DNA from: an uncultured Subdoligranulum sp.
GTDB lineage: Bacteria; Bacillota; Clostridia; Oscillospirales; Ruminococcaceae
DNA: 57,681 nt
Assembly (NCBI GenBank): GCA_945830575.1
Contig: CALZZE010000017.1
Location: forward strand, 1-57,681
Direction: 5' to 3'
The notes below the pieces were generated by a model. The model saw nothing but the letters and a program-made list of their open reading frames with translations. It had not been told where the DNA came from and searched no databases. The position numbers and the translations under genes were made by a program. Below are positions 2,779 to 28,812 of this stretch, piece by piece. Within the stretch, counting starts at the first letter, position 1, and the number at the start of each line of letters is the position of its first letter.

Positions 2779-3051
2779 TTATATTAGTTTTATTAACATA
2801 TCGTCTGCTGCGTCCGTGTACTGCCCTTTTGATAGCCATTCGTTCCTCAGTCGATTTATGGCGGTCCGCATAAGGCAAATTTCTTTTGTGGAAAAAGCGG
2901 CTTTTTTATCAGCTGGTAGAGAATTGATTTTCAGTATCAATCTTCCCGAATCCTGTGTGCTATGCCCAAGTTCCCTTTCTTGATAGTAATACGGAGCAAG
3001 AGCTTTCAGCAGGATACTTTTGTTCGCACGGGTCAATTTGATTTTTCTCAT
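2779..3051 (-). CDS. Small basic element-end protein, 90 aa (paralogue 1)
   Basis: A 90-aa Lys/Arg-rich protein (starts MRKIKLTRANKSILLKAL) whose start codon overlaps the stop of the upstream integrase gene by four bases (ATGA), so the two are probably co-translated. A paralogue of equal length follows the right att repeat, more than half identical by eye. The C-terminus KGQYTDAADDMLIKL is the best-conserved stretch between the two. No known domain recognised; the location suggests a recombination directionality or accessory DNA-binding factor, which is inference only. Confidence 0.7.
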   Translation of the reverse strand: MRKIKLTRANKSILLKALAPYYYQERELGHSTQDSGRLILKINSLPADKKAAFSTKEICLMRTAINRLRNEWLSKGQYTDAADDMLIKLI

Positions 3052-4223
3052 AGTCCAATCGCCTTTCCGAGTTTCTCTTGTGCCTTGCGTTTGTTCTTGT
3101 CAAACGCATGGGCATAAATATCCAATGTAGTGCTTGCTTGTGCATGACCAAGCAGGCTGGCAACCGTTCGTACATCCACGCCCTGTGAAATCAGCAAGCT
3201 GGCGTTTGTGTGTCGCAAGCTATGCACATTCAAATCCAGCGGCAAGTTGTTTGCTTTCAAAATCAGCTTGAAGCGATAGGTAAATGTGCAGGGATTCATC
3301 GGCTTTCCATTAGGTTGGCGGAACAGGTAGTCATCCTCGTCAACGGTTTCGTTCGCGGTCTGCTGCCTATCCCACTCACACTCTTTCCGCCACGCCTTGA
3401 GTAGCTGGCACATTTCTTTGCTCAAGTAGACCATACGATCACCGCTGCTGGTCTTGGGGTCCTTGGTAATAGACTCTTGGTGGCTCAACTTCACGACTCC
3501 TCGCTGTACATGGATTGTACGTTTGCGCCAGTTGATGTCACTCCATTTTAATCCACAGGCTTCCCCGCGCCGCAAACCAGTTGCCAGCACCAGCTTGAAA
3601 TAGGTTTCGTACTTCATACTCTGACCTTCAAACGCTGTAATCAGCTTTTTGACGGTTTCCTCGTCAGCTACCGGGCGCTCTTTCTTTTGTCCTTTCGGTT
3701 TGTAACATCTCCATGCGGGATTGTGAGTAAGGTATCCCTCGTCCACAGCCGCCGATAGGATGCCGCACAGCGTGTTGTGTAAACCTTCGACTGACTTCTC
3801 GGACAGGTTTCCTCTGCCGTCCAAACGCGGGCTGTGCCGCATTTCTTCGTAAAACTCACGGATAACTTCTTTTCGCAAATCCGTCAGCTTGTAGATTCCC
3901 AGTGCCGGCAGGATGCGCCGGATATCCTGCAAATCTCGTTGGTATGTAGAGTCCGCCAGCTTCTTCGGTCCTATGTCAGCCGCCCAATGCTCAATGTACT
4001 TTGCCAGCGTAATGCTGCGGTTAATGGGTTCCGGCGTATGCTGAACCTCGCGCTCAAATAGAATCGCCTGTTCCTTTACCCATTTCTCTGCCTGCTTCGG
4101 CGTATACTCCTTGGGTGGCTTGACTGTTTTCTGCACGGATTTCAGCCTGTTGCCCTCATAATCGTACCCACGGGATACCACGATCAAATAGCTATTACTG
4201 CCGCGTTTTCTGATAGACGCCAT
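3048..4223 (-). CDS. Tyrosine recombinase / integrase (first)
   Basis: A 391-aa integrase. I place the start at the Met of MASIRKRGS because AAAGGAG lies 10 bases before it; the reading frame is open further upstream but without a ribosome site. Residues ~1-60 resemble an arm-type DNA-binding domain, ~70-170 the SAM-like core-binding domain, and the rest the catalytic domain: Arg in ATGLRRGEACGLKW (~217), HxxR in HSLRHTNAS (~336), His in LLGHAQAST, and the nucleophile Tyr in TTLDIYAHAF (~368). All key residues are present, so it should be active. It lies next to the left att repeat and reads toward it, so it is the likely recombinase for the tRNA-Arg sites. The 90-aa gene is coupled downstream. 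Confidence 0.93.
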   Translation of the reverse strand: MASIRKRGSNSYLIVVSRGYDYEGNRLKSVQKTVKPPKEYTPKQAEKWVKEQAILFEREVQHTPEPINRSITLAKYIEHWAADIGPKKLADSTYQRDLQDIRRILPALGIYKLTDLRKEVIREFYEEMRHSPRLDGRGNLSEKSVEGLHNTLCGILSAAVDEGYLTHNPAWRCYKPKGQKKERPVADEETVKKLITAFEGQSMKYETYFKLVLATGLRRGEACGLKWSDINWRKRTIHVQRGVVKLSHQESITKDPKTSSGDRMVYLSKEMCQLLKAWRKECEWDRQQTANETVDEDDYLFRQPNGKPMNPCTFTYRFKLILKANNLPLDLNVHSLRHTNASLLISQGVDVRTVASLLGHAQASTTLDIYAHAFDKNKRKAQEKLGKAIGL

Positions 4224-4385
4224 TGTTTTCAACGCTCCTTTGTATGTTTTATTGACCTGCGGTACTACAAAGCATATCGACAACTGCGACAGAAAGCTAT
4301 CACCACACCCAACAATCTTTTGCTTGAAATTCTACCTATTACTGACAAAAACGGCATCGTCATCTCTGACGGTGCCGCCTGCTAT

Positions 4386-5585
4386 TTAACCTGCTTTCTT
4401 GGCTTTTCTATTCTTATTTTTCATAAATGCAACATAGCACGGATTTTGGTTGTTCAGCAGATCTTGCATCAGGTTTGCCGCCTGACGCTTCGCCACGTCC
4501 TGCGGGTGGCAGTAGGTGCGCTCCAAAAATGCCGTATCCGCATGACCCAGCAGGGATGCCGCCACCTGTTTGCTGGTACCCTCCTGCAGCAGATAGGTTG
4601 CGTAGAAATGCCGCAGAGTGTGCAGGTGATAATCTTCCGATAGCCCACACTTTTTATATAACTTGCGCAGATGCCGTGTAAAAGAATCCGGGTGCGGCAC
4701 ATGACCATCGGGGTCTGTAAAAATCGGCTGCTCTCTATCCGGAACGCCGCTATGCAGCACCTGCTGCTGTCGCAGCGCCATCAGAAGCTCCCATATCCCC
4801 AGCGGAATGGTTACAATCCGTTCCCGATGGCTCTTGGTGTCGCTCTCAACAATCTGCCCGGATGCACAGCTACGGGAACGGCGGACGGTCAGTTCACAAG
4901 CACCGGTTATGTCCCTCCATTGCAGGGCGCACAGTTCCCCACGCCGCAATCCGGTCGTAATTGCCAAGGTATAATAGGCGCGATACAGAATCGGTTCGTT
5001 CTGAATCGTCCGCATTAGTTTACTCATTTCATACTTCTGCGGAATATGCTGCACCTCCTTTTCAAAATGCTTTTTCCGAACGCGGTGCGCCGGATTAAAC
5101 GGAATAATGTCATTTTTCTTGGCATCCTCCAGTACCGAGGAAACCGTTTCCAGATATTTCTGCACAGTTGTTTCCTTGATGCAGTTTCCACCACGTCCGG
5201 GGCGCTTGCGCAGTTCCTCACACATTTCCTCTAAGGTCATGGGGAGCAGCTTTGCAAGCGGAATACCGCCAATCAATGGGTAGACAATATCCAGATTGCG
5301 TTTGTACCCTGCATAGGTGGTAGCTTTGAAAAACGGTTCCTGCCGCTTGAGCCAGTTTTCGGCGTACTGTTCAAAGTGGGTCTGGTCGCTTTCCTCGACA
5401 CCATACTTGAACTTTTTCTCGATGCGTTCCGCTTCAGCCATGACATACTGCTGAATGCCGCGCTTTGGCACAGATGATGGCACGGTGATAGTCTGCGCTT
5501 TCATTCGCTTCTGACCATTGACCTTATAGCCGTTGCAGACAGTGATTTTGAATTTTCGTTCAGATTTTTTCTTGATGTATGCCAT
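4386..5585 (-). CDS. Tyrosine recombinase / integrase (second)
   Basis: A 399-aa recombinase with its start at MAYIKKKSERK, preceded by AAGGAGG. Catalytic residues are all visible: Arg in TTGLRRGELCALQW (~213), HxxR in HTLRHFYAT (~324), His in LLGHADTAF, Tyr in ERTYCHPQD (~357). It shares general architecture with the neighbouring integrase but is clearly different in sequence, so this is not a recent duplication. It lies 162 bp upstream of the first integrase on the same strand. Two adjacent recombinases may act together, or one may be a relic of a nested insertion. Two AGCGTCAT motifs lie just upstream, between it and the Rep gene. Confidence 0.93.
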   Translation of the reverse strand: MAYIKKKSERKFKITVCNGYKVNGQKRMKAQTITVPSSVPKRGIQQYVMAEAERIEKKFKYGVEESDQTHFEQYAENWLKRQEPFFKATTYAGYKRNLDIVYPLIGGIPLAKLLPMTLEEMCEELRKRPGRGGNCIKETTVQKYLETVSSVLEDAKKNDIIPFNPAHRVRKKHFEKEVQHIPQKYEMSKLMRTIQNEPILYRAYYTLAITTGLRRGELCALQWRDITGACELTVRRSRSCASGQIVESDTKSHRERIVTIPLGIWELLMALRQQQVLHSGVPDREQPIFTDPDGHVPHPDSFTRHLRKLYKKCGLSEDYHLHTLRHFYATYLLQEGTSKQVAASLLGHADTAFLERTYCHPQDVAKRQAANLMQDLLNNQNPCYVAFMKNKNRKAKKAG

Positions 5586-5612
5586 TGTACCTCCTTGCTT
5601 GTAAATCAAATC

Positions 5613-5871
5613 AGCGTCATTGCTGATTTTAGCGTCATTTTTCCATTTCAACATTTCAAAAATACCGTCATTCTTTGTAAATGTAATATTTGACGTACTT
5701 ACGATTTCTTTTTTCGCAAAAGTGGTTGCTTTGTATAGGGTTACGCCCCATATTTTCCGCGCCAAGGCTTGGCCGATGACGCTAATGACGCTTGTGACGC
5801 TATTTTTGAGATATCCCAGCCGGATAATTGAGTTATGTCAATATCAGCGTCATTAGCGTCATCAGCGTCAT
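5613..5871. repeat. Iteron-like array of AGCGTCAT motifs
   Basis: Eight copies of AGCGTCAT or its complement: forward at 5613, 5631, 5846, 5855, 5864; reverse at 5776, 5785 and (one base off) 5794. The two triplets each have an exact 9-bp period and are inverted to each other about 45 bp apart, so they could pair as a long hairpin. Six copies lie inside the 3' end of the RepA-like gene, where they encode Asp/Ala/Asn and Ala/Ser repeats. Iterons next to or inside a replication-initiator gene are typical of plasmid and element origins, so this may be a replication origin; inferred. Confidence 0.6.
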
Positions 5872-11097: not shown

Positions 11098-13068
11098 TCA
11101 ATATACCTCCTTGCTTGCAATCACCGTCTTGGGCCAGGTCTGATCACTGTGGTTTTCCAACTTATAGACGGTTTTGACATACGGCTTCAGCTCGTTTTGA
11201 TACTTCTCAGTCAGATCACCGGTGGAGACCATAAAAATCACCTGCTTGCCCATATGCGGCAAGAAACGAGTAATTGCAGCACGATGTTCATCCGAAAACA
11301 GTCCAAGAGGGTTATCAATGATAACCGGTGCTGCAAAATCGGAGGAGCGATTCAATCCGGCAATATAAGAAAGGCTGATCACCTTAGACTGACCAGTCGA
11401 AGGATTCAGCGTGCGGCCAGGCTCGATCTGATAGGTTTCACCATTCGTAAGTTCAAGCAAAAGGCTGTAGTCTTTGGAAATTTTGATGCCTTTATACTTT
11501 TGGGGTGCGTTCGTGATTTGCAAGAAAACTTCGGTGGCATATTTCTCCACAAAAGCACGTTTTTCTTCCAGAAGACGATTGCGATACTCACTGAAGATCT
11601 TTTCCAACGCAATCGTGTTTTCCAATTTCTTCTGGCACAGAGCGCCCTCTTTATCCAACTGGCTAAGCTCGGCAAGCTTCTCTTCCAGCCGGGCAAGTTT
11701 TTCTCGGTCTTGCGACAACAGCACTTCTGTCACTGTGCGACGATTTTCGGTTTCCTTCTTTTTTGCCTCGGTACTGGCAATGTTCTGGATGATACGTTCG
11801 CCAGCTTCCTCATTAAAAGAACCGATATCTTTACGTAAATGCTCAAACTCTTCCTTTTTGGAGGAGCGTTCCTTCTCTTTTTTCCAAACTTCCTCACTCA
11901 GAGAAAAGTAAGCGGCACGTGTCTGGAATCCGTGGGGTTGATATTGGGCACAGACACTGAAAAGAGCACGGCGCTCCTTTTCAACAAGAATGGCATCGTC
12001 TGTGACTAAGTGATCCCGAATGAATGCCTGGATCTTTTCTTTGTGGGAATCCGTCATTGGCTCACCGCATACACAAACAGGCTGTTCCATAAGGCGAACC
12101 AGATACTCTTTTACCGGTTCGGTGATATGGTATTCCGTAGGTTCAGTAGATGTATCCTGCTGCATTTTAGCAAAAATGGAAGCAGCCAACATGAGGGTGG
12201 CATTCTTTTGAAAGCATTCAGACTGTTCCTGCCGAATGCGTTTCAAGTCATCGGTAAGTTGCTTGATTTCCTCAGACAATTTCTGCTTTCGAGTGACCTT
12301 TTCAGAAATCTCCTTGAAATCTTTCAGCTTATCTTCGTCCTTTTGTATCTGCTCGTTGGCGGCGTTAATCTCCTGCTCATATTGGCGCAACAAGGCTTCC
12401 TGCTCGGCAACTTTCTGGTCCGCTTCCATTTTCTGCTGCAGAATATCCTGATACTTGTTCTGATTCTGAATCCAAGTATCCCGACTTTTTTCAAATTCCT
12501 TTTTCAGCAGGCCGAGATCTTCTACGGCGTTATCAACTTCCTTAATGCCAAGGACACGGGCAATAGCGTCCTTATACTGGCTTCCGCTGGCCGTACTATA
12601 ATCGTTGATTTTTTCGCCGTCAAAGAAGAAGTACTGTGAGGCATCCTGATGCACAAGAGAATTGATGAAGTCTGCTTTCTCATCCTCTTCACTGCTCAGC
12701 GGAACATCGTTTTTGATCAGTTCCAACGTACATTTGAAGTCTTTGCTGCTTGGGGTTGCCTCCAGTTTCCCGCGCAGGTCAATGGAGCGAGAAATTTCGA
12801 TCTTGTCGGAGCCGTTCTCAACAAACAGAGAAACCGCGGCATGATAGCACTTCTCCGACTGGGCATTTACATTGATCAGATCTTTAAGATCGTCGCTATC
12901 TTTGGGACCGTACAGACAGAACAAAATTGCGGAAAAGAAGCAGGACTTTCCTACGTCATTATCAGCGTAAAGGATGCTGATGTTCCGCTCGCCGTCAATG
13001 GGAAAATCGAAGTTGCATTCCCCATAATAAGCGCGATAGTTGTTTATGCGGAGGGAATTGAAAATCAT
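11098..13068 (-). CDS. DndD-like SMC/RecN-type ATPase with coiled coil (656 aa)
   Basis: An SMC-like ATPase: N-terminal INNYRAYYGE opening, a non-standard Walker A (YADNDVGKSCFF in place of GxNGxGKS) near residue 35, the FFFDGEKI motif (~147) shared with DndD, long coiled coil (~190-280 and ~400-500) interrupted by CVCGEP (~340), then a signature LNPSTGQSKVISL (~553) and Walker B APVIIDNPLG (~585) where the usual catalytic Glu position is Asn. Starts with a 4-bp ATGA overlap with the upstream 56-aa gene. It is a second, diverged DndD-like protein in the same operon. By gene order it may be PbeC of a dndCDEA-pbeABCD system; changes in the ATP site suggest altered or slow hydrolysis. Confidence 0.85.
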   Translation of the reverse strand: MIFNSLRINNYRAYYGECNFDFPIDGERNISILYADNDVGKSCFFSAILFCLYGPKDSDDLKDLINVNAQSEKCYHAAVSLFVENGSDKIEISRSIDLRGKLEATPSSKDFKCTLELIKNDVPLSSEEDEKADFINSLVHQDASQYFFFDGEKINDYSTASGSQYKDAIARVLGIKEVDNAVEDLGLLKKEFEKSRDTWIQNQNKYQDILQQKMEADQKVAEQEALLRQYEQEINAANEQIQKDEDKLKDFKEISEKVTRKQKLSEEIKQLTDDLKRIRQEQSECFQKNATLMLAASIFAKMQQDTSTEPTEYHITEPVKEYLVRLMEQPVCVCGEPMTDSHKEKIQAFIRDHLVTDDAILVEKERRALFSVCAQYQPHGFQTRAAYFSLSEEVWKKEKERSSKKEEFEHLRKDIGSFNEEAGERIIQNIASTEAKKKETENRRTVTEVLLSQDREKLARLEEKLAELSQLDKEGALCQKKLENTIALEKIFSEYRNRLLEEKRAFVEKYATEVFLQITNAPQKYKGIKISKDYSLLLELTNGETYQIEPGRTLNPSTGQSKVISLSYIAGLNRSSDFAAPVIIDNPLGLFSDEHRAAITRFLPHMGKQVIFMVSTGDLTEKYQNELKPYVKTVYKLENHSDQTWPKTVIASKEVY

Positions 13069-20466: not shown

Positions 20467-20713
20467 GTATGGATTTTACTCCCTCTAGAAGTCTTTTCTG
20501 GTATGGAGAAAACTGTATATTTTTCCTATGCGGAAGTACAGTCTTATCCAATACTGCACCAGTATCAAGTATAACATTTTACGGAACAAAATGCACCTTG
20601 TCCGGCAAAAAAACTCTGCCTTTCCGGTATTTGACCGAATTTGCGGAAACCGCTTGCAATTCCCTCGAAATAGAGTTAACACAACACAAACGCTTTTTCG
20701 AGGAGGTCGCGAA
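20467..20713. promoter_or_regulatory. Divergent promoter region of dndC and the PAPS-reductase-like gene
   Basis: A 247-bp AT-rich gap between two divergent starts. A leftward -10-like TTATACT (complement near 20570-20576) is visible for dndC; no clear consensus -35 goes with it. For the rightward gene the AGGAGG ribosome site at 20701 is clear, but its promoter is not. Confidence 0.4.
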
Positions 20714-21661
20714 ATGGAAAATAGGATTTGTGAAAATCAAGAAACGACGATAGTAAAGGCATTTGAATCCAGAAAGGAAGGACTGAAGTATTTACAAAAG
20801 TTGCCGTTGGAAGTGAAGATCACGCTTTCTAAAAGTTTGATTGTGAACTGCATGGAGACCTTTGGTGAGCAGGTCTATATTTCCTTTTCGGGAGGAAAGG
20901 ATTCAACGGTTCTGTCATCTCTCGTGTGCAGTTTAAAGCCGGACATCCTGCATTTGTTTTCGGATACAGGCTGTGAATATCCGGAAACTCTGTCTTTCGT
21001 CGAAGAGGAACGCCAGAGAGGAAAAAACATTGTATCTGTGCGTCCCGTTTGTCGGGATGGTTCGGTATGGACCTTTGAACGCGTAGTTGCAACCTATGGC
21101 TACCCATTATTCTCCAAGGCGATTGCCAATGGAATACGGACATATCGACACGCGAAAACGCCTATAACAAAGCAGCACACACTGGATTATTTGGGACGGA
21201 TGTATCCCAAAGCACTATCCTATCTGGATTACAATATTTCTGACCTGTGCTGTGAAAAATTGAAAAAGGCGCCCTTGAAGCGTATGGCAAAGCGGATGCA
21301 AACGCAATGTAGTATAATCGGAACACTGGCAGAAGAAAGCCAGGTCCGGAAAAGGGATTGGATTGCGTATGGTTCCAATATCTTCTTTCAGAAGAAAGAC
21401 AACCAGTGTAGGCCGCTGTCTTTCTGGACAGAACGAGACATCTGGGATTATATTGAGCTTTATAAAATACCTATTTCCGCTTTGTATGGACAAGGATATC
21501 AAAGAAACGGATGTATGTTTTGTGGTTTCGGTCTGTGTGCGGAGCGACGGAAATTGGGAATTAACCGCTTTGAGAGACTGGCGATGACACACCCGAAGGA
21601 ATATGACTACATGGTGTCCCGATGGGCATCTCTTTTCAAGGCGTGTGGAATTCCCTATTGA
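20714..21661 (+). CDS. PAPS-reductase/ATP-pyrophosphatase family protein (315 aa)
   Basis: Start at MENRICENQE with AGGAGG seven bases upstream. PP-loop YISFSGGKDSTVL near residue 57 and Cys-rich segments: LCCEKLKK (~176) and RNGCMFCGFGLC (~268-279), suggesting an Fe-S or zinc site. It belongs to the same superfamily as DndC and SspD but is shorter and clearly different. It is transcribed away from dndC. It may be an extra thiol-transfer enzyme of the modification system, or may act on another substrate (members also make tRNA or nucleotide thio-modifications or oppose phage). Which one cannot be told from sequence. Confidence 0.8.
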   Translation: MENRICENQETTIVKAFESRKEGLKYLQKLPLEVKITLSKSLIVNCMETFGEQVYISFSGGKDSTVLSSLVCSLKPDILHLFSDTGCEYPETLSFVEEERQRGKNIVSVRPVCRDGSVWTFERVVATYGYPLFSKAIANGIRTYRHAKTPITKQHTLDYLGRMYPKALSYLDYNISDLCCEKLKKAPLKRMAKRMQTQCSIIGTLAEESQVRKRDWIAYGSNIFFQKKDNQCRPLSFWTERDIWDYIELYKIPISALYGQGYQRNGCMFCGFGLCAERRKLGINRFERLAMTHPKEYDYMVSRWASLFKACGIPY

Positions 21662-21809: not shown

Positions 21810-22985
21810 ATGGACGCTTCTGTGTTTGCCAAGATGCTCTCAGACCCAGGAATGTTGGACCTCAAAAAAATGGGATATAAATACGGTCAAGGAGATCTGC
21901 AGGAATTCCTCACACTACTCAAACGTGATTTTTATCAGGAACTACCCCTGCATGACTTTGACGGAAAACCGATGGTATACCTGGAAAGTGTGGCGCGGGT
22001 TTCATTGTCGGCTGCTCGTGTTTTGCTGACACCGCAGCAGAATGCCCGTCTGTATGGAACCAAGGCGATGGAAGAGGAAATCCTGTCCACCTTCCGAATC
22101 GAACAGATTGACACCAGCAGGGAAAGTGTGCGGCGGATTTTATCCGGTCAGGTACCGAAGGATAAGGAAGAACATCTCATCTATGGTATGAAACAGGGCC
22201 TGGAATTAATCGCGGACAGATCTCATACCATTACGGAGGAAAATCTCTTTCGGCTGTATCAGATGACCATTGGAGACTTCCTACCAGCGGAGGATCGTTT
22301 ACTGCCCGAACATTGGTATCGGCATGATAGCGTGTATATCGTAGGCAGCAAGGTGGAACATACTGGATTGCCTTGGCAGAAACTGCCAGCTTATATGGCA
22401 GAACTGGTTGCGTTTGCTGCCGAGAAAACAGCACAGAATGATCTAATCAAGGCAGCCATTTTGCATTTCGCGTTTGCCTATCTGCATCCCTACTTTGATG
22501 GAAACGGTCGGATGGCGCGCCTGCTCCATTTGTGGTATCTGGTGCAGCAGGGATACTCGTCGGCATTGCTCGTGCCGATGTCCCGCTTTGTGGAGGAAAG
22601 CCGCTCCCGGTATTATAAAGCGTACACCCAAGTGGAACAGAATCAGCAGATCAGCGGCGTGCTGGATGTGACGCCGTTCCTGGTCTATTTTGCGGAATCG
22701 GTGTATCACCGGCTGGGAGAAGATCAGCCGCAGCCACGGACGCTACAAGCTTTCGAGGAAGCGCTGCGGCAAGGGAAGGTTACCGAGAAGGAGCGGGCGC
22801 TCTGGCAGTTTGTCCTCACGGCTTATGGCAGCGAAGAGTTTTCCACCAAGCGGTTGGAAAAAGACTTCGGCGATGCGGCTTATGCCACGATCCGGAGCTT
22901 CGTTCTCAAATTTGAGAGCCTTGGTCTGCTGACTTCGGTCCGCTACGGCAACCGGGTTAAGTACCGGATTCAGGATGCGGAATAA
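21810..22985 (+). CDS. Fic family AMP-transferase-type protein
   Basis: A 391-aa Fic protein; AAAGGAG nine bases before the ATG. The active-site motif AYLHPYFDGNGRMAR (~223) fits HPFxxGNGRxxR, so it should be able to transfer AMP or another nucleotide. An N-terminal inhibitory-helix-like STFRIEQI (~93) resembles (S/T)xxxE(G/N), but has Gln after the Glu. The C-terminal ~80 residues form a winged-helix-like domain (KRLEKDFGDAAYATIRSF). This layout is common in bacterial Fic proteins with self-inhibition. It stands alone between the Dnd genes and the STAND pair and may be a toxin-like defence component; target unknown. Confidence 0.9.
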   Translation: MDASVFAKMLSDPGMLDLKKMGYKYGQGDLQEFLTLLKRDFYQELPLHDFDGKPMVYLESVARVSLSAARVLLTPQQNARLYGTKAMEEEILSTFRIEQIDTSRESVRRILSGQVPKDKEEHLIYGMKQGLELIADRSHTITEENLFRLYQMTIGDFLPAEDRLLPEHWYRHDSVYIVGSKVEHTGLPWQKLPAYMAELVAFAAEKTAQNDLIKAAILHFAFAYLHPYFDGNGRMARLLHLWYLVQQGYSSALLVPMSRFVEESRSRYYKAYTQVEQNQQISGVLDVTPFLVYFAESVYHRLGEDQPQPRTLQAFEEALRQGKVTEKERALWQFVLTAYGSEEFSTKRLEKDFGDAAYATIRSFVLKFESLGLLTSVRYGNRVKYRIQDAE

Positions 22986-23071: not shown

Positions 23072-24076
23072 TTATTCTCGACAAAAGAATTTTGAGTTCT
23101 GTTTTGCATGAGAAGGTCTGTAATACTGGCGGCGCATCTCTGTATCTGCCCAGTAACAAATCTGATCCTGCAAAAAGACAAAATCGGCAGCAGTGGTAGG
23201 AAGGCCTGCTTCCCGCTGATCAATGTAATCTATCAAACGTTCCTCTAGTTTACTTATGTCAGAGGAGAGCGTTACATCTCGCAGATTCAGTTGATACTTT
23301 TTCTGCCGCCAGCGCAGTGGAGCCTCCCAGCTTTTCCTGGTCAAAACACTCATTTTAGTTGGCTTGTATAAAAGCGCAATTTTTTTCTTCCATGTGCCTG
23401 GATTTGCCGGTTCGTTTCCACGGGTATGCGCTATGTTTTCGAGCCATGCATACAGTTCATCAGCTGTCTGAGCCATATATTCTTGTAACTGCAGCCAACC
23501 GCCTTCTTGCTGTTCAATCAGCTGTTGTGGTAACGTGCCGCAATTTTCCGTTTTTTCAGAGCAGACATCAAGATAATGTTTGAGCTTGCGAAGCCCTTGG
23601 TCGGAGACTGCATCTGGCCACATATATGCATAATGGCAGAAAAACTGTCTTGTGAAGGCTACAAGGCTTAAAAAGTTTTCCCATTTTATGCGGTCACTGT
23701 CAGGGCTTTCCGAAAGCAATATCTCTATAGAACTATAGGAATAGTCCGGCTCGGCACAGGCGTTCTTCAATGCCGCATTAAAGCAGACAGCATATAGTTG
23801 AGACATCTGGGCGCCAACCAAGATAGCTTCCTGCCCAGCAACCACATTGACCGTCTCTGTCTGTGGTCCGTTTTGTATATTGGCGGGGATTCCGATAAAA
23901 ATATCTACTCCCGTAAGCCGGTAGAAATCCCGGCTCAAATCATAAAGAAGCGACTCACGGCAGAGCTTTGGAACCCGGATGGAAAGTCCAGGCTCATCTT
24001 TATGGGAAACCCTATCAATGCGCCGTTGTTTTTCCAAGGCGCGCAGTTGCTTGTGATCATGGGTCTTTTTGCTCAT
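23072..24076 (-). CDS. Unknown partner of the STAND-like protein (334 aa)
   Basis: A 334-aa protein with a Lys/Arg-rich N-terminus (MSKKTHDHKQLRALEKQRR). Its ATG shares one base with the stop of the 1375-aa gene (TGATG), so translation is coupled. No domain recognised: no P-loop, no membrane helix and no nuclease motif that I trust. Notable segments are VVAGQEAILVGAQMSQLYAV (~80) and a Trp/Tyr-rich region around residues 135-215. Tight coupling to a large NTPase suggests an effector, target or regulator in the same system. Confidence 0.75.
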   Translation of the reverse strand: MSKKTHDHKQLRALEKQRRIDRVSHKDEPGLSIRVPKLCRESLLYDLSRDFYRLTGVDIFIGIPANIQNGPQTETVNVVAGQEAILVGAQMSQLYAVCFNAALKNACAEPDYSYSSIEILLSESPDSDRIKWENFLSLVAFTRQFFCHYAYMWPDAVSDQGLRKLKHYLDVCSEKTENCGTLPQQLIEQQEGGWLQLQEYMAQTADELYAWLENIAHTRGNEPANPGTWKKKIALLYKPTKMSVLTRKSWEAPLRWRQKKYQLNLRDVTLSSDISKLEERLIDYIDQREAGLPTTAADFVFLQDQICYWADTEMRRQYYRPSHAKQNSKFFCRE

Positions 24077-27000
24077 CAGAGTGTGCCTCCCTTCTCCGGG
24101 AGGTCTGCTATCGGGGCTGCCACGGGACCTTCCCGATTAAAGCGAACACCAAAAGTATAGCTGTTTCCGCCGTTCCAGCCAGTCCCCAATACAGCGTCTG
24201 CCACATAAAGATATTTGTTTTTGAGCAGATTATTCATTTGTTCCCACTCCGGGACCTGTTCGGATTTAGAATCGGACTGCACCTCGATGATTTTTGCACA
24301 CTTATCTTCCAATTCCACAGTACAGGTCACCTGTACTGGTGTATGGTCCGACCAGCAGAGTAGCAGATAACTGGTGTTATATCGTCCGTTGCGGGGGGCG
24401 CGCAGTGGACGCCGGCAGTCATCAAACATTTCCGGCTGCCGTCGACGGCGAATCAAACGCGAATCTGAAGTCCTGAACCAGAGCAGTACGGCATGCAGGT
24501 AGTGCAGCAACAGGTCTTTCCCCAAGCCAGTGGTATCCGCACAATAATTTTGGCAGACGACATCAATAAGGTCCCAATAAGGTTCAAGCAGATATACGTC
24601 AGCCATATCCACATAAGGAAATAAACCAGTTTCAGCCATCCATTTGGCACGTACATAATACTCCTGCAGACGAAGATGGGTATCCTGGTATGCGGCATAA
24701 ATGTTCTTGCAGCCATGCGCTGCAGTTCCATTGGGGAGACGGATTCCAGCCTGTTCCGCCGAGCCTTCTTTTCCTTCCATCACATCTACAATTAGCTGGG
24801 CACGGGCACGTTCCTCCTTGGAAAGGTGGCGATTCTTCTCCTCCCATTGAAAATCCAAGGAGCGAAGGTACAAATTGTTTTTCAACAAATCGGCACCCTG
24901 CATTTGTGTCTGACCCGACAAGGGTTCGTGCCAAAGTGCGGTGATTCGGTTGATCCACCAATTGCCTTGATCGCACTGATACAGTTCTTTGTCGTGCCGG
25001 TCAAGATTCAAGGTGGCACCGGCTTCCCACTGGGTATCTTTGCTGAGTTCGTACCAACTGTTCAGAATCTCATTGATCTTATTTTGCTGGCTAGCCCCTG
25101 CGTTGACCAATTCTTTCATGTCCATCAGGCCAAACAGGATGTATTGCCAGTAGAAATCCATGTGTGCGGCCAAGTTACGCAAATCCTTGATGCCCAGCTT
25201 TTTATGAACACGGATGTTGTATACTAGCATATCATTATAGATATATACAATGCGTTGGTTACCGTATTCCCCAGACGCAACGGACAACGGAATCAGCCGA
25301 GTTCTAATTAGCTGCTCCACATCCAGCAAAAGTTGCTCACCATATTCCTGACGTCCTGCTACCAGTTGGCGTTCTGCTTCTGTCAGGTGGTCCATAAACG
25401 CGGTCTCAGGGCAATAGAGGCAGCGACGGTTGCAGCACCATTCGGTATAAAGCTGAATCTGTTGACGTTTGCTCACCGATGTCTGAGAAGCATTCACCTG
25501 CCGGATAGCTTCTATCAATATGTTACTGGTAGAAAGCTGCTTTTTATAGAAATCCTCCGACTGCGGAGACGTTTTATTGAAAGTCTGCAGGCACTTGTCA
25601 GTCCAATCATAATGCCGCAGCAGAAAGGCCGCTTTTTGTAAGGCTGCAACATTTTTTTCGCTATAACGGATCAGTTGCTGAGCAATGTAGGGATACCACC
25701 GTATCATACCTGAATCAGCTTCGTTGTTAGGACCGAAGCAATCTGCCAAATGCAGCGCTTCATAGGCAAATTCATTATTGCCATCGTCTAGCCGCCCCAT
25801 TTTCAATACACTGCACAGTACCTGTACAGCCACCTGCTCCTGCAGTACCTCTCCGTTTTTCCCGATGTATCGCCAAATGTCTCGACCTTCCAAGCCGAGC
25901 ATCCCCTCGCAGGAGACTTTCACCTTTGCGTGCTCAGCCTCGTCGCTGCTGGTAATTTTCCGGGGATATCTGTAGTCCAGAAACAGCTGTGCTTCCAGTG
26001 CAGAGCGGTATCTCAGTGTCCAGTTGGAAGAGTCCTCACCATTCCACGCAATCATAGGACTATAGTCTAGAAGTGCATTAAGCAGTGCCTGCCAATAGCC
26101 AAGATAGCCCAGCAATTTCCCATATCGCTCCCTGTAAAGATCTTCCATAACACGGAAGACCAGCTCAAAATGTAAGCTTTGTCGCCAGCGGCCAGCCACC
26201 GCAAGAATATCATCCAGTACAACGGCACAGTCGGTAATTCGGTTCCGAACTTCTTCGTCCCATTTGCAATTGAAAGCTTTCAGCGCCGTAACTAGGGCGC
26301 CGTCGTGGCGGGCATCTTCCAGCATGGCCATATTGCGATCCAGTGCCGACTGAAGAGCGACTCTGGCAGCATTGACCTCGTTCATGGCAGATCTCTGTAG
26401 ATTCTGGGCAATATCATCGTCTACACCACGGAACAGATGGCTCAACACGCTAAGCAGTGTGTTTTCCTCTTTGTCCTGTTGTATATGCCAGTCGTCGCGC
26501 GGGTTTCCCATCTGTAGTGCCCGCTCAAACTGGATGCGATCCAGCCCTAGATTTCGATTCAGCTTTTCATACAGAGATTCCTGTTCGTATTCGGAAAGCC
26601 GCGGCTGCAGCATCACTTCGTCGTCCCTCAGGGCGTTTCCATTGCGGGGGTTGGCATACGCGCTACCAACAAGCAGAAATTCGGTAGATATCTGTAGTTG
26701 GTGGCGCAGCTGGTAGTAGATTTCCCGCGCCTCCGTTTCATAAAAACCGCCGTCCCAGATGACCAGCACACGTTTTCGGTTGAATTTGCGGTTTCCCATG
26801 ACTTTGGTGAACTGTTCCCGGATAAAAACAGCCAGCTGGGCATACAGGTTCTCGTCCCCCTCACATTCCCGTGGTAGCGAGGAGGGCCCGAGATAAATGG
26901 TTGGGAAGTGGACGGAAAGGTCAAGAGCCAGACGCCCCAGCATCACCGTTTTTCCGCTGCAGGCAGGGCCTTTGAGCAGAAGAAAATCGGTACGCTGGAT

Positions 27001-28203
27001 ACCGGTTTTCAAAGACGTAAAGGCCTTTTTATAAAGCGTTTGATACAAATCCCGCTCAAAATAGCAGTTTTCGTAGCCCTCCCACAACGGAATATCTCGA
27101 TTGTTGGCCAGGAAAGCAGTCATCTGTATTGTCCGGTCAACATTTGTCATCTCTGCCGCTGAAAATTTTTCCAACGGCAGCAGGCAGGATTTGCTGGCAA
27201 AGGGCAGTTTTTCCCACTGCTTTACCGGTACAGAGATATCCAGTGGACGCTCATGGGCCTGCACTCCCAACAGATGAAAATGATAATATTCCTCATCCTG
27301 CACAGGGATGGCTTCCTGGAAACTCTTTTCCCAGAAAAGGTCGGTCAGATGTCCGTCCAGGAAAGTAATTCGGGCGACTAGGCGACGCAGCGTACGGTCG
27401 GTGTCAACAAAAGCTTGTGGGGGCACCCCGAAACAGATAACCTTGATTTGATTACGGCCCTGTTTATTCTGCAGCTCGTCCATTATATACAGCAAGTCCT
27501 GCGCATGGAGCCAGTCGCTGGAGGGGTCCCAGCCATCCAGAATCAGGTATCCGTTGTAAGGGAGGGCCCGGCTCACAGCCACACACAGTGCATTGCGGGC
27601 CCGGTTTTCGGTTTCCCATACAAAATCCGGTTCATCAAAGCTCAGGTGTAGATTGTGGCCGGGTGCAAACAGCTGCAGCAGCGAAAGCGAACTGGTACGG
27701 AACGTCTGGGGAAGGGGAGCGTCGGTATAAATCACGGTTTTCTGGACTGAAAAAGGGCTGCCAGGCACCGTACGTACAAGGGATTCCGGTGCGCTGGTGG
27801 CTACGAGGCGCCAGCCGCCACAAAGCGTCCGGTTGACGCGCACCATCGCTTCCGAAGCGTTCCGCTGCAGTGCCTGCCGCGCCGCATCCGTAATGGCGTC
27901 CCAATTGTTAACGATATCCTCGGGCAGAGAGCAGAATTCTTCACCGCCTTCGGGCATTTCAACCACTCGGGTAAGTTTCTTCCACAATTCGGTATAGTTA
28001 GGAACGGCCGCACCTTTCAAACATTCCAAGACTTTTGATGCCGCCTGCAAAAAGTATTCCTCTCCGTAAAAATCGGTTTGATATTTTTGCCCCAGAAACA
28101 GAACGGACGCGTTAGTTCGCAAGGCACTGCGGAATTCATCGCGGCTTAATTCCAAATGATTCTGCAGCTGTTCTTCTATTTTATTCAGTTGCTCTTGTGC
28201 CAT
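24076..28203 (-). CDS. Giant STAND-like P-loop NTPase with degenerate SIR2-like N-terminus (1375 aa)
   Basis: Residues ~1-290 follow the layout of SIR2-like domains in phage-defence STAND proteins: an LRTNASVLFLGQKY start, VATSAPESLVR where SIR2-like proteins have TTNYDxLLE, then YNGYLILDGWDPSSDWL (~220). The catalytic Asn/Asp are missing, so NAD cleavage is doubtful. Walker A LLKGPACSGKTVMLG (~413) and Walker B RVLVIWDGG (~482) define the NTPase. After ~600 the protein is mainly helical, like a sensor built of repeats, with a CCNRRCLYC cluster near 925. Ribosome site AAGGGGG precedes the ATG; a promoter lies 40-70 bp upstream. It is first gene of a two-gene unit. Defence function is inferred from architecture and location. 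Confidence 0.8.
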   Translation of the reverse strand: MAQEQLNKIEEQLQNHLELSRDEFRSALRTNASVLFLGQKYQTDFYGEEYFLQAASKVLECLKGAAVPNYTELWKKLTRVVEMPEGGEEFCSLPEDIVNNWDAITDAARQALQRNASEAMVRVNRTLCGGWRLVATSAPESLVRTVPGSPFSVQKTVIYTDAPLPQTFRTSSLSLLQLFAPGHNLHLSFDEPDFVWETENRARNALCVAVSRALPYNGYLILDGWDPSSDWLHAQDLLYIMDELQNKQGRNQIKVICFGVPPQAFVDTDRTLRRLVARITFLDGHLTDLFWEKSFQEAIPVQDEEYYHFHLLGVQAHERPLDISVPVKQWEKLPFASKSCLLPLEKFSAAEMTNVDRTIQMTAFLANNRDIPLWEGYENCYFERDLYQTLYKKAFTSLKTGIQRTDFLLLKGPACSGKTVMLGRLALDLSVHFPTIYLGPSSLPRECEGDENLYAQLAVFIREQFTKVMGNRKFNRKRVLVIWDGGFYETEAREIYYQLRHQLQISTEFLLVGSAYANPRNGNALRDDEVMLQPRLSEYEQESLYEKLNRNLGLDRIQFERALQMGNPRDDWHIQQDKEENTLLSVLSHLFRGVDDDIAQNLQRSAMNEVNAARVALQSALDRNMAMLEDARHDGALVTALKAFNCKWDEEVRNRITDCAVVLDDILAVAGRWRQSLHFELVFRVMEDLYRERYGKLLGYLGYWQALLNALLDYSPMIAWNGEDSSNWTLRYRSALEAQLFLDYRYPRKITSSDEAEHAKVKVSCEGMLGLEGRDIWRYIGKNGEVLQEQVAVQVLCSVLKMGRLDDGNNEFAYEALHLADCFGPNNEADSGMIRWYPYIAQQLIRYSEKNVAALQKAAFLLRHYDWTDKCLQTFNKTSPQSEDFYKKQLSTSNILIEAIRQVNASQTSVSKRQQIQLYTEWCCNRRCLYCPETAFMDHLTEAERQLVAGRQEYGEQLLLDVEQLIRTRLIPLSVASGEYGNQRIVYIYNDMLVYNIRVHKKLGIKDLRNLAAHMDFYWQYILFGLMDMKELVNAGASQQNKINEILNSWYELSKDTQWEAGATLNLDRHDKELYQCDQGNWWINRITALWHEPLSGQTQMQGADLLKNNLYLRSLDFQWEEKNRHLSKEERARAQLIVDVMEGKEGSAEQAGIRLPNGTAAHGCKNIYAAYQDTHLRLQEYYVRAKWMAETGLFPYVDMADVYLLEPYWDLIDVVCQNYCADTTGLGKDLLLHYLHAVLLWFRTSDSRLIRRRRQPEMFDDCRRPLRAPRNGRYNTSYLLLCWSDHTPVQVTCTVELEDKCAKIIEVQSDSKSEQVPEWEQMNNLLKNKYLYVADAVLGTGWNGGNSYTFGVRFNREGPVAAPIADLPEKGGTL

Positions 28204-28242: not shown

Positions 28243-28272
28243 ATTATACTATGGTAACACGTCGTTTTACAA
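28243..28272 (-). promoter_or_regulatory. Promoter of the STAND-like operon
   Basis: On the minus strand: -35 TTGTAA (28267-28272), 18-bp spacer, -10 TATAAT (28243-28248). It lies about 40 bp upstream of the start codon. Confidence 0.7.
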
Positions 28273-28601: not shown

Positions 28602-28812
28602 CTCCGACCCGGAAGGCCAGAGGTTCGAATCCTCCCGGTCGCACCAAGAGCAGCACCTTATGGGGTGCTGCTCTTTTTGTTTTGCATGGATTTTATGGAG
28701 CAGTAAAAGAGGGGGATTCGAACAGCCCGTGCCCCGCGCTTTGCGTCCCGCGGGGCAGAAACGCCCCGGTGGGGCGTTTCTAGGGCGCGGCTTGGCGAAT
28801 CCCTTCAGGCGC
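28602..28812 (+). repeat. Right 211-bp att repeat with tRNA-Arg(CCG) 3' half
   Basis: Copy of 2291-2501 with four differences by eye. It again starts in the anticodon loop and gives the tRNA 3' half through CCA (28602-28646), terminator (28648-28688) and two GC hairpins. The bases upstream do not restore a tRNA, so this is a displaced or second-element copy. Sequence similarity to the left end continues past the repeat into the 90-aa gene. Confidence 0.9.

Follow-up and report, generated by a model that had tools for sequence, protein, structure and literature searches.

A rare gene pair from an uncultured Subdoligranulum sp. coding for a STAND NTPase with a degenerate, probably SIR2-derived domain and a candidate HEPN ribonuclease

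The window analysed here, a stretch of 57,681 nucleotides (assembly GCA_945830575.1, contig CALZZE010000017.1) of an uncultured Subdoligranulum sp., carries two coupled genes on its minus strand, termed A and B in the following, which code for proteins of 1375 and 334 amino acids, respectively (Table 1). The pair combines a STAND-type NTPase, whose probably SIR2-derived N-terminal domain appears to have lost its activity, with a candidate ribonuclease (RNase) of the HEPN type, and may act in defence against phages. Both open reading frames and their coupling by a TGATG stop/start had been recognised in a preliminary description made from the sequence, and are confirmed here. The ATG of gene B is preceded by GGGAGG, and the G+C contents at the three codon positions (0.592/0.371/0.555 in A, 0.537/0.382/0.463 in B) are similar to those of neighbouring genes. 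The promoter claimed for the pair at first stands as a sigma-70-like consensus match upstream of A (10 of 12 positions); the scan total of 8, versus 6.1 (standard deviation 2.3) expected, was not clearly above that of shuffled sequences. A terminator-like hairpin with 13 pairs and a T-rich tail is located in the gap beyond gene A, at 28646–28675 on the plus strand.

To find relatives of A, the window protein served as the sole query against 297 genomes of the family and 391 genomes of the class, and a three-row profile was used for 398 genomes of the phylum. The family search returned the genome of origin only, the class search the genome of origin together with G341 and G496, and the phylum profile search the genome of origin and G776; smaller profile searches around the three relatives yielded no further members. 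About 1,100 distinct genomes of the phylum were examined overall, as estimated from the highest genome handle (G1118), with overlapping draws. Since G776 was found by the profile, the single-sequence searches may have missed members. Short matches confined to the P-loop (E 2.4e-5 to 1e-3), which accounted for 5 of 7, 10 of 11 and 1 of 2 matching genomes in three profile searches, were not counted. Leave-one-out profiles recovered each A protein at E 1.3e-43 to 5.2e-111, compared with 0.11 for the best of 200 shuffles of each, indicating that the relatives are, by sequence, genuine. Identity to the A protein of G496 is 29% for G341, 24% for G776 and 20% for the window protein. In all four loci A is followed on the same strand by a gene coding for 246–334 amino acids (246–295 in the three relatives), with a 1-base overlap in the window and in G496, and a gap of 1 base in G341 and of 15 bases in G776. 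With four members in about 1,100 genomes, A is rare, and since a short gene stands directly after each of its three distant relatives, the pair is conserved but rare. Confinement of the pair to a single genome, which according to the preliminary description would have refuted its proposal, did not hold.

The G776 pair has genes for Cas6, DevR/Csa2, a Cas_CXXC_CXXC protein and a C5 DNA methylase within about 5 kb, while a SIR2-STAND gene lies 91 bases upstream of the G496 pair and a protein kinase gene about 4 kb downstream. The SIR2-STAND protein of G496 (L004:4813-8061, plus strand) comprises 1082 amino acids, contains an FNWDD motif and matches nSTAND3 over the cut-off; its gene and that of the A relative possibly form one transcript. 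A PF25199 survey for closer relatives, in which six loci were inspected, revealed a SIR2-nSTAND5 protein with intact motifs (L050, G432) and a SIR2-STAND protein (L051, G331). As a lone query, B matched only its own genome among 391 genomes. With A as query, tblastn searches of 72,556 plasmid records and 50,697 phage records detected no relative, nor did the G496 A protein (plasmids and phages), the G341 A protein (plasmids) or B (plasmids) retrieve anything. Pattern scans returned 2 and 585 stretches from genome contigs and 3, 64, 16, 3 and 2 stretches from viral contigs, none of which was confirmed.

Neither A nor B matched any family of PADLOC or NCBIfam at E 1; a named two-gene system matching both genes, the other refuting outcome named in the preliminary description, was thus not found among these models. 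Apart from the STAND match discussed below, Pfam gave chance-level lines for A and one line at E 0.16 for B. In PHROGs, B had no match and A a single line at E 0.62, the best match among the relatives being that of G496 B to an unknown family (E 0.0024). The P-loop part of G496 A showed a weak PADLOC match to mad8 (7.5e-07), and other weak lines among the relatives were to PtuA (0.0043), PDC-M19B (0.0097) and TIR-TM (0.26). Residues 157–203 of G776 B (L016:6329-7231, minus strand) matched PDC-M15B weakly (E 0.0018). A literature search for PDC-M15B by name found nothing, and one for MADS mad7/mad8 gave only unrelated papers among the matches listed. In sequence searches of the PDB, A as a whole matched P-loop proteins only, and the parts searched matched nothing at E 0.01.

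Protein B had been described at first as lacking any known motif, its R-x4-H motif having gone unseen. In a plain alignment, an arginine and a histidine five columns apart are invariant in all four B proteins, and no other basic residue of B is invariant. Their spacing is that of the HEPN RNase signature, R-x4-6-H with a polar residue after the arginine, mostly N, D or H; the sections of the source available to us state that RNase L, RloC and PrrC require the histidine, and that the arginine is needed for cleavage in some cases (PMC3710099). The residue after the arginine is polar in each of the four proteins (Q, N, T and S). Invariant R-x4-6-H columns occurred in 0 of 400 shuffled sets and in 0 of 400 control quadruples, the latter drawn from 90 other open frames, not all genes, of the fetched loci and the window. 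Two local segments are common to the B proteins, namely the LY segment and, 38–64 residues further on, a segment of the form hxxhRxxxxH. With one protein left out at a time, the R-H segment was recovered in the right place in the window protein (p 0.001), G341 (p 0.0005) and G776 (p 0.0015), and the LY segment in the window protein (p 0.0035), G496 (p 0.0085) and G341 (p 0.0075, three residues off), with p 0.061 for G776. These features suggest that B is probably an RNA-cutting toxin of the HEPN type, and it is treated as a candidate for such an enzyme in the following. A line to DjCas13d in the PDB search (E 0.41) did not cover an R-x4-H motif and was taken for a chance match.

Several results weigh against this assignment and against the defensive reading built on it. 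An N, D or H follows the motif arginine in one of the four B proteins only. Seven invariant columns are not unusual, as 71 of 400 control quadruples equal that number, and R-x4-6-H is present elsewhere by chance in three of the four proteins. For G496 B, the leave-one-out test pointed to the wrong place and missed the R-H segment (p 0.108), and the p values for the local segments are flattered, since the segment limits were set after viewing all four proteins. Full-length leave-one-out profiles never recovered the fourth B protein at a meaningful E-value in the four leave-outs: G341 came first but at E 0.55, G776 came second after a shuffle, and the window protein and G496 ranked behind shuffles; by sequence, the B proteins have diverged too far for their homology to be detected over the full length. 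Pfam, PADLOC, NCBIfam and the PDB provided no match of B that was taken for HEPN, and a single-sequence AlphaFold model of B, with a mean predicted local distance difference test (pLDDT) score of 35, was unusable. Besides, only four members of the A-B family are known, and the G341 pair sits among apparent housekeeping genes, together with an encapsulin gene. One alternative is that B is an adaptor or antitoxin-like partner and no nuclease, its R-x4-H motif being structural or accidental, which would agree with the failure of HEPN profiles to detect B and of the local motif test in one of four proteins. However, none of the 800 controls reproduced the invariant pair in its HEPN spacing, and a B protein of this kind would leave A without a recognisable effector; we consider this alternative unlikely.

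Based on its motifs, A is a STAND NTPase. The Walker A and Walker B motifs, already noted as clear in the preliminary description, could be located and are intact (GxxxxGKT and hhWD) in all four A proteins. The Pfam family nSTAND_NTPase5, with a cut-off of 34 bits, is matched over the cut-off by two of the four, G496 (38.7 bits) and G341 (37.0 bits), and below it by G776 (23.7 bits) and the window protein (23.1 bits); sub-threshold matches mean little, 281 of 291 genomes containing a match at E 0.001 and 16 of 291 one over the cut-off. A C-terminal cold-shock/OB domain, suspected by eye in the A proteins of G776 and G341, found no support: there was no Pfam match, and hhalign comparison of three A C-termini with one cold-shock protein gave a score of 8.9, whereas the highest-scoring of 100 shuffles attained 19.9.

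The N-terminal region of A had been described as SIR2-like in layout, and the segments TSAPESL and GWDPSSDWL quoted in this context are both present. Support came from one profile test, whereas database searches gave no SIR2 match in Pfam or, by sequence, in the PDB. In this test, a three-row profile of the first 300–345 residues of A (G496, G341 and the window) was compared by hhalign with 18 SIR2 rows, 15 from 17 loci (L079 and L082 failed the motif filter and were left out) and three STAND-linked ones; owing to two duplicates, 16 rows were distinct. The score was 26.2 (P 0.0078, or 0.0088 with G776 added), as compared to 21.5 for the best of 200 column shuffles, none of which reached 26.2, 14.2 for the reversed profile, and at most 18.6 for other blocks of A. 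In the resulting register, TS of A is placed on TTN[YF]D, YLFG on YKMHG, and DGWNP on GYS, and the position of the GAGXS loop is occupied by FLGQ, or FLGD in G776. From this modest profile score we conclude that the N-terminus of A is probably SIR2-derived. A single-sequence AlphaFold model of residues 1–325 had a mean pLDDT of 35 and was likewise unusable.

In Avs5, GAGXS and TTNXD contact nicotinamide adenine dinucleotide (NAD), and each of the exchanges N110A, D112A and E202A abolishes defence, according to the sections available of PMC12931631. Both motifs are lost in all four A proteins, with TS or TT lacking the Asn at the TTNXD place. The A family is without a conserved polar residue at the places of the TTNXD Asn and the HG His, and in G776 much of the stretch between the GAGXS and TTNXD places is missing. 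We conclude that the SIR2-derived domain is predicted to be catalytically dead as a family trait. A is not a member of Avs5, since the GAGXS and TTNXD catalytic motifs, for which it was tested, are absent.

The preliminary description had offered two explanations of this domain. The first, a structural SIR2-like part with the 334-residue protein as effector, gains support from the loss of the NAD motifs in all four A proteins and the aligned R-x4-H in all four B proteins. The second, a new enzymatic SIR2 variant, is disfavoured by the same loss, and also because the G776 domain lacks much of the stretch separating the first two motifs. A conceivable alternative is a ligand-sensing STAND protein, the pseudo-SIR2 pocket of which would bind NAD, ADP-ribose or a signal nucleotide, with B as effector and a metabolite instead of a phage protein as trigger. 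The FLG retained in the NAD-binding loop is consistent with such a pocket, and the FNWDD-containing SIR2-STAND protein encoded upstream on the same strand in G496 could make such a product; however, the second G of GAGXS is lost and the upstream gene occurs in one of the four loci only, and we judge this explanation quite improbable. Similarly improbable, in our estimate, is that the SIR2-derived domain is still the effector, as a divergent enzyme that processes NAD or nucleotides through other residues, B acting as a regulator or immunity partner. In its favour, very divergent A proteins have LFLG, T and the DG strand-loop in common, and Avs5 keeps its activity when its HG motif is replaced by NG (PMC12931631, text seen in part), but the NAD-contacting motifs and the polar residues are gone as described, and the G776 domain is truncated.

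Table 1. Features of the A-B gene pair; positions refer to the window, and residue numbers to the encoded proteins
Feature	Position	Strand	Remarks
Gene A	24076..28203	-	1375 aa; STAND-type NTPase with probably SIR2-derived N-terminal domain and long C-terminal part without known domain
Gene B	23072..24076	-	334 aa; candidate HEPN RNase; 1-base overlap with A
Promoter match TTGTAA-18-TATAAT, upstream of A	28243..28272	-	sigma-70-like; consensus only, 10/12
VLFLGQ, A 34-39	28087..28104	-	place of SIR2 GAGXS loop; lacks the second G, LFLG shared by 4/4
VATSAPESL, A 134-142	27778..27804	-	place of SIR2 TTNXD motif; Asn lost in 4/4
LILDGWDPSSDWL, A 220-232	27508..27546	-	place of SIR2 GYS strand-loop
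Walker A GPACSGKT, A 412-419	26947..26970	-	GxxxxGKT in 4/4 members
Walker B VLVIWDGG, A 479-486	26746..26769	-	W-D invariant in 4/4
LY segment MSQLYAVCFNA, B 91-101	23774..23806	-	conserved
RQFFCH, B 143-148	23633..23650	-	R-x4-H, predicted HEPN catalytic motif

The pair was originally placed at the end of a defence island, and this holds: genes for DndA, DndC and DndD, PbeA- and PbeC-like genes and a gene for a GmrSD-like protein are found on one side, accompanied by another PAPS-reductase-like gene and the gene of a Fic protein, while the other side comprises genes read from their translations as response regulator, histidine kinase and ABC transporter. On the far side of the island, a tRNA-Ala gene is located at 2647–2720; two genes, at 3048–4283 and 4386–5765, were read as tyrosine recombinases from their translations, without library comparison. 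The G+C content is 0.41–0.54 up to 36 kb and 0.61–0.66 from there to 57681. The G+C step near 36 kb, the tRNA-Ala gene and the two recombinase-like genes suggest an integrated island, on which the A-B pair may travel. In the region from 20 to 31 kb of the window, no Rfam family reached its gathering score. The second PAPS-reductase-like protein (20528–21661, plus strand; Pfam 7.5e-24, PADLOC BrxP line 7.4e-17) is encoded divergently to DndC, and a gene for a SoFic-like Fic protein at 21810–22985 adjoins it. A DndD-like ATPase encoded at 11098–13068 on the minus strand, which matches PbeC with 1107 bits, stands beside the PbeA-like and Dnd modification genes, the mixed Dnd/Pbe cluster of the window containing two DndD-type ATPases.

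From the architecture of the proteins and the neighbourhood of the genes we infer a defence role of the pair. The explanation we favour, and hold to be reasonably probable, is an abortive-infection module made up of a STAND sensor (A), a pseudo-SIR2 platform and a separate HEPN RNase effector (B). The long C-terminal part of A would bind a phage trigger, whereupon its STAND NTPase would oligomerise; the pseudo-SIR2 domain, having lost its NAD-binding residues, may serve as oligomer platform or adaptor. B, presumably a metal-independent RNase of the HEPN type, would be held inactive or undimerised by contact with A; once the STAND protein assembles on the phage signal, B monomers would be brought together or freed. 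Active B might then cut cellular or phage RNA, halting growth of the infected cell. If so, the pair would illustrate how NLR-like sensors of bacteria can exchange effectors, with the former fused enzyme retained as a scaffold and its role passing to a separate toxin gene; bacterial immunity would include a conserved pseudo-sirtuin; and a system missed by the searched PADLOC and NCBIfam releases would be added. A more speculative extension, which we regard as doubtful, is that the SIR2 effector died and turned into a platform on which a separately encoded HEPN RNase docks, the STAND scaffold thus having switched from NAD depletion to RNA cleavage, and that in G496 the pair may co-assemble with the active-looking SIR2-STAND protein to attack both NAD and RNA.

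A limited literature search (open-licence texts, supplements excluded) gave, among the matches listed, no description of a split STAND/HEPN pair with a dead SIR2 domain. Several known systems resemble it in part, as far as the sections available of each source go. Avs5 and other SIR2-STAND proteins likewise combine an N-terminal SIR2-type domain, a STAND NTPase and a large remainder for sensing; in contrast to Avs5, neither GAGXS nor TTNXD occurs in any of the four A proteins, and a second gene is linked to A, whereas PaAvs5 needs its SIR2 activity (PMC12931631). STAND proteins in which SIR2 replaces TIR have been reported from phage-satellite hotspots (PMC9122126), and for DefensePredictor 31 validated systems are reported, of which 4 contain HEPN domains and 7 contain P-loop NTPase domains (PMC13092281). 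The anti-phage HEPN RNase Tha, with 301 amino acids and the R-x4-H motif RNSIMH, is similar to B; it differs in that phage minor tail proteins trigger it, and an NTPase partner is not mentioned in the text available, where the word "atpase" occurs 0 times (PMC11087260). HEPN and PIN RNases at the boundaries of Dnd systems, the HEPN gene sometimes on the other strand, were described in 2024 and considered likely backup suicide effectors; they share the island-edge position of the A-B pair, but in the accessible part of that work STAND NTPases appear as Orc/CDC6 fusions or in general remarks and not as HEPN partners, and "SIR2" is unmentioned (PMC10853773). Fusions of HEPN with STAND, TPR and S1 or cold-shock domains appeared in a listing of 2013, and the single-chain HEPN-STAND-TPR-S1/cold-shock proteins likewise unite a HEPN-type motif with a STAND NTPase (PMC3710099); unlike in these, the candidate HEPN protein described here is encoded by a separate downstream gene, and the STAND protein bears a pseudo-SIR2 domain. 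Single-chain HEPN-STAND and SIR2-STAND proteins being known, the A-B pair is best classed as a variation on the STAND-plus-HEPN theme.

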